Virus record (IMG/VR): IMGVR_UViG_3300008267_006639
Span: 1 to 25,543 of that record
Direction: 5' to 3' (one strand)
Origin: a virus
DNA: 25,543 bases
Below, piece by piece: positions 2,378 to 23,883 of this stretch (positions are counted from its first letter, which is position 1; the number at the start of each line of letters is the position of its first letter). The notes under the pieces are model-generated. The model was given only the letters and a program-made list of their open reading frames with translations. It made no database searches and was not told the DNA's origin. The position numbers and the translations under genes were made by a program.

Positions 2378-2424
2378 GTAAATGCCTCGTGTGTAAATGT
2401 GTGTTGTGTGTAAGCGAGCCCGTT

Positions 2425-2750
2425 CTGTTTCTAGGTGGTGCCCATACCCACAGGATTATGCGGCTAGCGCGTAAGCCTTAGGAGCAAAGTTTTCGTTTGC
2501 AGTTGTAATTTTCTTGCGTTAACCGAGCTTGCGCCGAGTAGCTCCATCCTGCCTAGTCCGCCTGTCGATCCTATTTCGAGCCCATCAAAGATACACTCGG
2601 ATAATCCTAATGTGCTGGCAGGATTTTACAGGATAGCCAGCACCCTCTATTGGTATAGCCAAGTGAAACTTGGAACCTAACCGAGTGTATCTATGGTGGA
2701 CCCGCTGGGTACCGCCCCCAGGTCCAGAACGTGTTCAGTGAATATCATCA
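2425..2750 (-). ncRNA. ssrA: Circularly permuted (two-piece) tmRNA gene
   Basis: Reading the minus strand, the acceptor piece comes first. T-stem CTGGG (2721-2717), 7-nt loop GGCGGTA and CCCAG (2709-2705) are followed by acceptor strand CGGGTCC (2704-2698) and encoded ACCA (2697-2694). A 110-nt intervening segment (2693-2584) follows. The coding piece then starts at 2583 with GGGCTCG, which pairs all 7 bp with CGGGTCC, including a G3-U70 type wobble, the alanine identity signal of tmRNA. The typical GGATCGACAGG follows. The tag frame runs from GCA at 2500 to TAA at 2456 and encodes ANENFAPKAYALAA. The 3'-before-5' order is the permuted form known from Alphaproteobacteria, some cyanobacteria and betaproteobacteria. 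Outer ends are approximate. tmRNA rescues stalled ribosomes with SmpB; I see no smpB here. Confidence 0.93.
2584..2693 (-). other. Intervening segment of the permuted tmRNA precursor
   Basis: Lies between the encoded CCA and the first base of the coding piece, so it should be removed during maturation. It is closed by a perfect 12-bp stem (2589-2600 with 2681-2692, AGATACACTCGG and its complement), stacked almost directly on the acceptor stem. Inside are an 8-bp hairpin (2612-2619 with 2636-2643, GTGCTGGC/GCCAGCAC, 16-nt loop) and a 6-bp hairpin (2659-2664 with 2668-2673, CCAAGT/ACTTGG). Confidence 0.85.
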
Positions 2751-2761
2751 CTACAAGTCTA

Positions 2762-2790
2762 TTTATATACTATTTACTCGTTAATGTCAA
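2762..2790 (-). promoter_or_regulatory. Promoter of the tmRNA unit
   Basis: Perfect TTGACA, 17-bp spacer, TATAAA on the minus strand, just upstream of the acceptor piece. The predicted start is near 2754, so the RNA begins close to the AGTGA/TCACT hairpin before the T-arm. Downstream genes (VWA, 86 aa, barrel) have no promoter of their own that I can see. Confidence 0.8.
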
Positions 2791-2798
2791 CAAAAAAG

Positions 2799-3401
2799 TT
2801 AGTTATGCTTTTCTAAAACGTTTGCCATGCCATGGTTTACATTAGCATGACCCTGTTCATCTTCTCTTACACGAATGACTACATCACGAAGAGTCGACTC
2901 TTCAGGCAAATCATAATAGTCAATTGCGATTTTTGGTGCTGGGATGTTTGCAATTCTGCCAGAATCAATCTCTTCAAGATACTGTGTATAACTCACGACG
3001 GCTTGATCTTCAAAATACCCGATCATGCGATGAGCAGTCTTTGGAAAGAACACGTAGAGAACAAAGTAGAAATGCCAAAAGACAAACTGTGCGAAGGCAA
3101 CAAGCGTTCTTTCAAATAAGCTAGGTTTAGCAATCTCAATAAAGATCATGAGATGCATTCGTTCGTTCTCTGCTTCTTCTAACAGAGTTTTAATCCAGCC
3201 CCGCTTATCCGGTTCCATCTTCCGCAGACTACGAAGATGCTGCCACATGCCGGCAACCATTCCAGGCACGCCTGCGACAGTCTCAAGTACTACTGCTCTG
3301 TGACCGTAACGCTTTGCAAAAAACGTATCTGCAAACCAACGAAATGATGCAGTTAAGCCATAAGCTACCTGATCTGAAATATTACTTGGTTTTACTGGCA
3401 T
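2799..3401 (-). CDS. aox: Alternative oxidase (di-iron ubiquinol oxidase)
   Basis: 200 aa. All six di-iron ligands of the AOX family are present: E40 in LETVAGVPGM, E80 and H83 in EEAENERMH, E131 in RMIGYFEDQAVVSY, and E182 and H185 in EDEQGHANVNH. Tyr138, the conserved redox-active tyrosine, is also kept. The middle (about 98-120) is a hydrophobic patch fitting the family's monotopic membrane binding. It should oxidise ubiquinol and reduce O2 to water without proton pumping, at the inner membrane. Related plastoquinol oxidases (PTOX) are known in cyanophages; this sequence looks closer to bacterial ubiquinol AOX. It is slightly short for the family but complete. No strong Shine-Dalgarno; it overlaps a tiny upstream ORF by 10 nt. 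It ends just before the tmRNA promoter. Confidence 0.93.
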   Translation of the reverse strand: MPVKPSNISDQVAYGLTASFRWFADTFFAKRYGHRAVVLETVAGVPGMVAGMWQHLRSLRKMEPDKRGWIKTLLEEAENERMHLMIFIEIAKPSLFERTLVAFAQFVFWHFYFVLYVFFPKTAHRMIGYFEDQAVVSYTQYLEEIDSGRIANIPAPKIAIDYYDLPEESTLRDVVIRVREDEQGHANVNHGMANVLEKHN

Positions 3402-22604: not shown

Positions 22605-22635
22605 TTAAAGTTCAGGCGGACTTAACCGCCTGAAC
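22605..22635 (-). terminator. Strong hairpin across the end of the CCA-enzyme gene
   Basis: Perfect 10-bp stem GTTCAGGCGG/CCGCCTGAAC with a 6-nt loop; the gene's TGA lies in the 3' arm. Only a short TTT follows, so it could attenuate or protect the mRNA 3' end and not fully terminate. The next gene (22590) has no visible promoter of its own. Confidence 0.6.
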
Positions 22636-23859
22636 ACGTGCCTTAAACATACCTTCTTTGATCTTTGTAGTGTTCTTCTCACCGTTTGGAAATACATCAG
22701 CAAACTTAACAGCGCGAACACGATCAAAGACCCACCGTACTTTCATCAGATGCTCGGTAGGATCATCCTCAGAACCCAGTCGGCCATTCTCATCACAAAC
22801 ACCGACAGCCCACAGCAGCAGCACAACCTCAGGATCGCGGAAAGCATCCATATCCTCGAACATATGAACCCAAGTTTTCGGGTTCAGAGTGTCCAGCTTG
22901 TGCATATGCATGTGAAACCGAGTCGTCTTCATCACTCGACTCCGCATTTTTGCAGGAACAGTCAGACGGTTACAGAAGTCACGAGCAACTACAACACCAG
23001 TGACTTCGTGCCCATAGTGCTTAGGCAGTTGATCACGAGGAGTCAGGCCTTTTCCGAAGTCATGTACCAGGCAAGCCAGTCGAGTCTCCAGATCAAAGTT
23101 GCTCTCAACAGCTTGAGTCAGAACCAGCATGGTGTGCTCGTAAGCATCACCTTCAGGGTGCCAACGCCGAGCTTCCAGAGCAGTCTTCAGGCGATACACT
23201 TCTGGGAACAGAACATGCAGTGCATCACACTCCAGCAGAGTGTCGAAGAACAGACGAGCATGATCTTCCATCAGAGCTCGGCTCAGTTCTTTCCAAACAC
23301 GCTCAGCAGTCAGCTCGTTCAGAACACCCCGCTTTGCCATCTGAGAAACCAGAGCAACAGTTTCTGAAGCAACTGTCCATTCCGGACCAAAGCGAGCGCG
23401 GAAACGAGCCAGCCGCAGAACACGAACAGGATCATCAGCGAAAGCATCAGAAGTGTGCCGCAGCACCTTGTTCTTCATATCTTCTTGACCATTGAAAGGA
23501 TCAACAATATCCATGATACGAGTCTTAGCATCGTCGAAGAACTCTATCGCCATCGCATTGATCGTTAGATCGCGACGAGACAGATCTTCTTCGATCGTCA
23601 CTTCAGGACCAAATTCAACATCGAAGCCATGGTAACCTTTACCCGACTTACGTTCACGACGTGCCAGAGCCCATTCATCACCCTGATCGCTCATGAACAC
23701 TGGGAACTCAGCACCAACTTTGGTGAACGACTTAATGTAAAACGGAGGGTTCGCCATTAGCTCAGCTTCAGTTGCACCGGTAACAACCCAGTCGACATCT
23801 TGAGAGCTAACGCTCATAAGATAATCGCGGACATATCCGCCGACTTTGTAAAATCTCAT
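22612..23859 (-). CDS. cca: tRNA nucleotidyltransferase (CCA-adding enzyme) with HD domain
   Basis: 415 aa. MRFYKVGGYVRDYLM with SQDVDWVV gives the class II nucleotidyltransferase core (GG..RD..M...DxD). EDLSRRDLTINAMAIEF and DPVRVLRLARFRARF are the conserved tRNA-binding and nucleotide-selection motifs. LVHDFGKGLTP with GHEVTG is the HD phosphohydrolase domain, as in E. coli-type enzymes. It adds or repairs CCA at tRNA 3' ends. Start at 23859 has AAGGTG 6 nt upstream; an ATG at 23877 sits at the predicted transcript start. No tRNA gene is in the window. The codon choice here looks richer in C and G than some neighbours, which could mean later acquisition. Confidence 0.92.
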   Translation of the reverse strand: MRFYKVGGYVRDYLMSVSSQDVDWVVTGATEAELMANPPFYIKSFTKVGAEFPVFMSDQGDEWALARRERKSGKGYHGFDVEFGPEVTIEEDLSRRDLTINAMAIEFFDDAKTRIMDIVDPFNGQEDMKNKVLRHTSDAFADDPVRVLRLARFRARFGPEWTVASETVALVSQMAKRGVLNELTAERVWKELSRALMEDHARLFFDTLLECDALHVLFPEVYRLKTALEARRWHPEGDAYEHTMLVLTQAVESNFDLETRLACLVHDFGKGLTPRDQLPKHYGHEVTGVVVARDFCNRLTVPAKMRSRVMKTTRFHMHMHKLDTLNPKTWVHMFEDMDAFRDPEVVLLLWAVGVCDENGRLGSEDDPTEHLMKVRWVFDRVRAVKFADVFPNGEKNTTKIKEGMFKARVQAVKSA

Positions 23860-23883
23860 GTTGTTCACCTTGTTCATAGATAT

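Follow-up and report, generated by a model that had tools for sequence, protein, structure and literature searches.

The window analysed here, a whole IMG/VR virus record of 25,543 bases, carries on its minus strand a tmRNA gene that is circularly permuted: the acceptor piece lies upstream and is followed by an intervening segment and then by the coding piece (Table 1). This order had been proposed in the first-pass annotation and is borne out by the sequence and by both Rfam models of permuted tmRNAs, whose application had been suggested as a check and which both score well above threshold. In a cmscan of the window, RF01849 (alpha_tmRNA) matched at 2794-2413 (-) with 105.4 bits (E=3.8e-28; gathering score 50) and RF04321 (tmRNA_permuted) at 2755-2456 (-) with 101.3 bits (E=5.6e-19; threshold 47), the full model being covered in each case. 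ARAGORN, which does detect the tmRNAs of several relatives, did not report the gene when run on the window. The acceptor piece comprises a helix strand that pairs with the coding piece, the T-arm CUGGG GGCGGUA CCCAG, the 3' strand of the acceptor stem and the ACCA 3' end; the coding piece comprises the 5' acceptor strand, the D-loop region, a helix strand, the tag reading frame and a conserved 3' end. The identity of the gene, its two pieces, its tag, a promoter-like motif and covariation can thus be read from the sequence. All seven pairs of the acceptor stem predicted earlier form between the two pieces, the G3-U70 wobble and the encoded CCA are present, and the two predicted ends, a GGG start at 2583 and a CCA end at 2694, are exact to the base. 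Only the extent required correction: the earlier span of 2425-2750 marks the right gene and is slightly short, leaving outside the promoter and 5' acceptor part (2750-2790) as well as the conserved 3' end (~2413-2430). The assignment to a T4-like phage likewise holds, given the PhoH, T4 RNase H, tail-fibre and PAAR genes of the window and a T4-type late sigma factor encoded by the relative G006 (phrog_12791, E=5.3e-81).

Table 1. Features of the tmRNA locus, of the window and of related virus contigs (L numbers).
Feature	Position	Strand	Basis or remark
Alternative oxidase (AOX) gene	2799..3401	-	PF01786, E=5.5e-79; directly upstream of tmRNA
-35 element TTGACA	2785..2790	-	TTGAC 18 bases before TATAAATA in all 15 octamer-bearing phage copies
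-10 element TATAAATA	2760..2767	-	Motif; sigma-70-like, also matching T4-type late promoter core ATAAATA
Acceptor piece	2694..2755	-	RF01849 and RF04321 alignments, sequence; 5' end (~2755) inferred from promoter
Acceptor 3' strand CGGGUCC	2704-2698	-	Sequence
Discriminator A	2697	-	Sequence
Encoded CCA	2696-2694	-	Sequence
Intervening segment, 110 nt	2584..2693	-	Sequence; predicted long hairpin extending acceptor stem
Coding piece	2413..2583	-	RF01849 alignment to model position 355; 3' end approximate
Acceptor 5' strand GGGCUCG	2583-2577	-	Sequence
Tag reading frame GCA...UAA, tag ANENFAPKAYALAA	2456..2500	-	Sequence
Resume codon GCA	2500-2498	-	Sequence
Tag stop codon UAA	2458-2456	-	Sequence
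CCA-adding enzyme (tRNA nucleotidyltransferase) gene	22612..23877	-	PF01743/PF12627/HD; phrog_2244, E=1.1e-113
Split tmRNA + complete tmRNA	L016:1199-2904		Inserted GIY-YIG/NUMOD3 nuclease gene, 1304-2497
Split tmRNA + complete tmRNA	L045:3927-5517		GIY-YIG/NUMOD3 nuclease; different breakpoint near T-arm
Split tmRNA + complete tmRNA	L023:6209-7418		Truncated acceptor piece, inserted ORF, different tmRNA

Relatives of the locus were fetched via the neighbouring AOX protein, which is encoded by 116 virus contigs, 80 of which were kept. An alpha_tmRNA above threshold was found in 33 of these 80 AOX-bearing records (25 + 8; some are near duplicates of one another), a lower bound since many of the records are fragments, and in four isolated phages, Phosso, DSS3_MAL1, RpAliso and MD18. 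Together with the E-values, this recurrence excludes a chance match. The two-piece tmRNA is thus frequent in the T4-like phage group that is found via the alternative oxidase gene.

Upstream of the acceptor piece, the promoter of the window tmRNA reads TTGACA-N17-TATAAATA, and the arrangement TTGAC-N18-TATAAATA is common to 15 of 25 distinct phage tmRNA copies. The octamer precedes the CCA end by 73-75 bases in 14 of the 25 and by 99 bases in one more; across all relatives, the distance from TTGAC to a downstream TATAAATA shows a sharp peak at 18 bases (16/105), most other offsets being zero. The window promoter differs from that of the bacterial RF01849 copies, and none of 22 bacterial tmRNA promoters contains the octamer. 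Within the window TATAAATA occurs four times, always on the minus strand, compared with 0.67 expected. Two long relatives show no genome-wide enrichment (8 found vs 8.4 expected, 15 vs 18.5), nor is it enriched relative to octamers of the same composition, and its use as a genome-wide late promoter was rejected on these grounds. The late-promoter reading consequently draws on the shorter core ATAAATA and on position. Upstream of ORFs this core is strongly strand-biased (85 sense vs 19 antisense), and because of this bias and of the late sigma factor in G006 a compound early and late promoter for the tmRNA is plausible, if unproven: TTGAC-N18-TATAAATA fits use by sigma-70 and possibly also by the phage late sigma factor.

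The most serious competitor to a compound promoter is a working tmRNA that is transcribed early only, from a host sigma-70 promoter whose resemblance to a late promoter is accidental; we give it a little less than an even chance. TTGAC stands at the standard sigma-70 spacing in every octamer-bearing copy (15/15), the Melnitz tmRNA sits behind an early promoter (PMC9004378), and the octamer lacks genome-wide enrichment, all of which such a promoter would explain. It would leave unexplained, however, why the other promoter-like TTGAC-N18 sites mostly continue with TATACT, TATATT or TATAAT whereas in the tmRNA promoters TATAAATA is preserved in full, and it is at odds with the strand bias of ATAAATA and the late sigma factor of a relative. 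This promoter anatomy makes the timing of the tmRNA (early, late or both) directly testable. The motif is not a tmRNA-only promoter, a possibility that was rejected as TTGAC-N18-TATAAATA also precedes some phage hsp20-like genes. As a separate observation, the leaders of two hsp20-like genes, L065:7415-7478 (+) and L152:5934-5999 (-), resemble the ROSE RNA thermometer RF02523 with 32.5 bits each (E ~4e-5), which falls short of the gathering score (43); similar hsp20-like leaders occur in L012, L016, L017, L032, L046, L074 and L076, and a literature search found no phage ROSE elements.

The fold predicted for 2570-2720 has an energy of -62 kcal/mol (z=-4.9 vs shuffles) and joins acceptor stem and intervening segment into one long hairpin, an architecture that is also found in most relatives. 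Since the CCA end of the precursor sits in a largely paired region, processing would have to free it. The hairpin is not a phage-specific invention, as in several bacterial copies, too, the acceptor stem continues into the intervening segment. Phage intervening segments tend to be longer than bacterial ones, nearly half of the bacterial copies having failed the parser, and that of the window is longer than in most parsed bacterial copies. An unusually long intervening segment of 410 nt was noticed in the permuted tmRNA of Sinorhizobium phage Phosso (L113), a gene that is absent from the annotated features of its record.

Comparison of the acceptor stem across 24 distinct phage copies reveals compensatory change: pairs 4, 5 (5-68), 6 and 7 take 2, 5, 3 and 2 pair types, respectively, with both sides covarying, whereas G1-C72, G2-C71, G3-U70 and ACCA are invariant. 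Since only copies with seven pairs and an initial GG passed the stem parser, it is the variety of pair types and the constancy of G3-U70, and not the number of pairs, that counts as evidence. With G3-U70 and the ACCA end, the window copy possesses the identity features for alanine. Its tag frame is complete, having a resume codon, a stop codon and a degron-like C-terminus, and the tags of the relatives all begin with AN and mostly end in ALAA, AIAA or a similar degron while their middles differ. Judged by the constant first three pairs and ACCA, the covarying pairs 4-7 and the degron-like tags starting with AN, the window gene looks like a selected, chargeable tmRNA and not like a remnant or a decoy. 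Tags with a duplicated start, for example ANDNFANDNFEPAYATKVAMA, were seen in the bacterial loci L161-L163 and L165-L168 from alphaproteobacterial metagenome genomes.

A gene for SmpB was found in none of 29 phage records, which include complete genomes of 149-469 kb; in a control, the same search was positive for 10 of 14 known genomes. The window is a 25.5-kb fragment, so its phage may carry SmpB elsewhere in the genome. This absence predicts dependence on a host partner, presumably host SmpB. For maturation, charging, timing and benefit to the phage we infer the following course: The phage would transcribe one precursor from its own promoter at 2760-2790 (-), and host tRNA-processing enzymes would excise the 110-nt intervening hairpin, yielding an acceptor piece with its ACCA end at 2694 and, from GGG at 2583 on, a coding piece; the acceptor stem and a second helix would keep the two together. 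Charging through G3-U70 would fall to host alanyl-tRNA synthetase, and host SmpB and EF-Tu would deliver the molecule to stalled ribosomes, where addition of ANENFAPKAYALAA would free the ribosomes and mark the fragments for ClpXP-type proteases. For the phage, the advantage is probably that ribosome rescue and tagging are sustained while mRNAs are degraded during infection. The first-pass annotation had likewise suggested that host enzymes process the RNA and that it may rescue ribosomes stalled on degraded host mRNA, both of which would fit this course. Altogether, we regard it as very probable that the gene is a functional, circularly permuted tmRNA of the alphaproteobacterial type in a T4-like phage, matured and used with host partners as proposed.

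The alternative that the RNA serves mainly as a decoy, titrating SmpB or inhibiting host trans-translation, has a precedent in mycobacteriophage DS6A, whose tag-less, tRNA-like tmRNA, or a similar molecule, inhibits the endogenous tmRNA (PMC11915505, PMC4131195), and the phage records without their own SmpB would suit it. Yet while the DS6A form has no tag (PMC4131195), the window copy has one, with resume and stop codons intact, and degron-like ends are kept across diverged phages, which a decoy would not need; given these conserved tags, we judge a decoy quite improbable.

In sequence comparisons, most of the window gene is matched by phage copies, the best non-identical ones with ~67-71% identity over 345-380 nt, whereas sampled bacterial tmRNAs match only short stretches around the T-arm; since the bacterial sample was chosen partly by T-arm identity and partly as the best-scoring 30 of 115 genomes, a host tmRNA closer to the window copy is possible. 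By these alignments the window tmRNA appears to belong to a phage lineage of its own. A recently captured host gene without selected phage function, be it a passenger or an integration scar, is the least probable reading. In its favour, tmRNA genes often serve as integration sites (PMC11915505, PMC4383910), and the relatives L016, L045 and L023 hold truncated copies. Against it, the window copy is complete and is preceded by a promoter of its own, similarity among phage copies runs through most of the gene whereas that to sampled bacterial ones is confined to short stretches, and both the promoter motif and the stem have been conserved, the latter by compensatory change. The patterns of conservation instead indicate that the tmRNA is under selection in the AOX-linked T4-like phage group and, given its frequency there, these phages appear to provide ribosome rescue for themselves. 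The host is an alphaproteobacterium; exact T-arm matches led to diverse alphaproteobacteria and to no single host.

Among the closest known counterparts is the alphaproteobacterial two-piece tmRNA of RF01849, as in Caulobacter, which shares gene order, acceptor stem, T-arm type and tag frame with the window copy. The latter scores 105 bits against mostly 130-312 in sampled bacterial copies and is without the hairpin found in bacteria at the 5' end of the acceptor piece: model positions ~40-53 are deleted in the RF01849 alignment, while most sampled bacterial copies, examined by eye, have a hairpin preceding the first helix of this piece. The phage form is thus a trimmed variant, and the 5' hairpin is not required for membership in the permuted family. 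The roseophages DSS3_MAL1, MD18 and RpAliso and the Sinorhizobium phage Phosso, like the window, have a permuted alpha-type tmRNA above threshold, but they carry other tags and lack the TATAAATA promoter. Bacillus phage G and the mycobacteriophages Bxz1 and Wildcat, whose hosts lie outside the groups with permuted genes, have one-piece tmRNAs. These resemble the window copy in being phage-encoded (PMC4131195). The earlier view that a permuted tmRNA is uncommon in a T4-like phage stands as to permutation and phage type and not as to rarity: permuted alpha-type tmRNAs had already been published for the T4-like phage Melnitz and the SAR11 phage Mosig, 53 two-piece phage tmRNAs, 50 of them marine or aquatic, had been counted by 2021 (PMC9004378), and the tmRNA_permuted model appeared in 2025 (PMC11915505). 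In Melnitz the tmRNA is coupled to a glutamine riboswitch and an early promoter (PMC9004378), whereas the window has TTGACA-N17-TATAAATA and an adjacent AOX gene, and cmscan of the window found no riboswitch reaching the Rfam threshold. The two-piece phage tmRNA as such is known; the window gene has a trimmed 5' end and a distinct promoter, and what is added here is the resemblance among phage copies, the promoter they share, the lack of SmpB in the records searched and the split genes of relatives.

Three kinds of relatives have a tmRNA gene that is split in or near the T-arm by an inserted cassette, which also brings a complete new copy; two of the three cassettes carry homing-endonuclease genes. 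In L016, a tmRNA promoter with its acceptor piece breaks off in the T-arm, at GGACTCGG, and is followed by the nuclease gene and then by a whole tmRNA; over its 81 bases, the truncated part shares 97.5% identity with the start of the intact tmRNA in L032. The arrangement in L023 is shared with its near copies, and its inserted ORF matched no Pfam or PHROG family. In L109 a NUMOD3 gene lies on the other side; the window's tmRNA itself showed no homing cassette. T4 SegB is one known example of homing in the neighbourhood of phage tRNA genes, which these arrangements parallel. The nuclease cassettes suggest a route for the exchange of tmRNA alleles between phages. We tentatively propose, as a possibility just short of probable, that in this T4-like phage group the tmRNA is old, phage-adapted and mobile, that it is made throughout infection from a compound promoter for host sigma-70 and the phage late sigma factor, and that it spreads between phages on homing-endonuclease cassettes that cut the resident tmRNA gene in the T-arm and replace it with a complete copy of their own.

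Elsewhere in the window, the CCA-adding enzyme could maintain CCA ends; despite its gene, ARAGORN found no tRNA genes in the window. The AOX protein had no match in PHROG and a single one in 50,697 phage records (58%, phage C48C1, annotated as hypothetical). The gene is thus nearly absent from annotated phage records, compared with relatives in 116 IMG/VR contigs, and the literature found to mention alternative oxidase together with myoviruses is on cyanophages.
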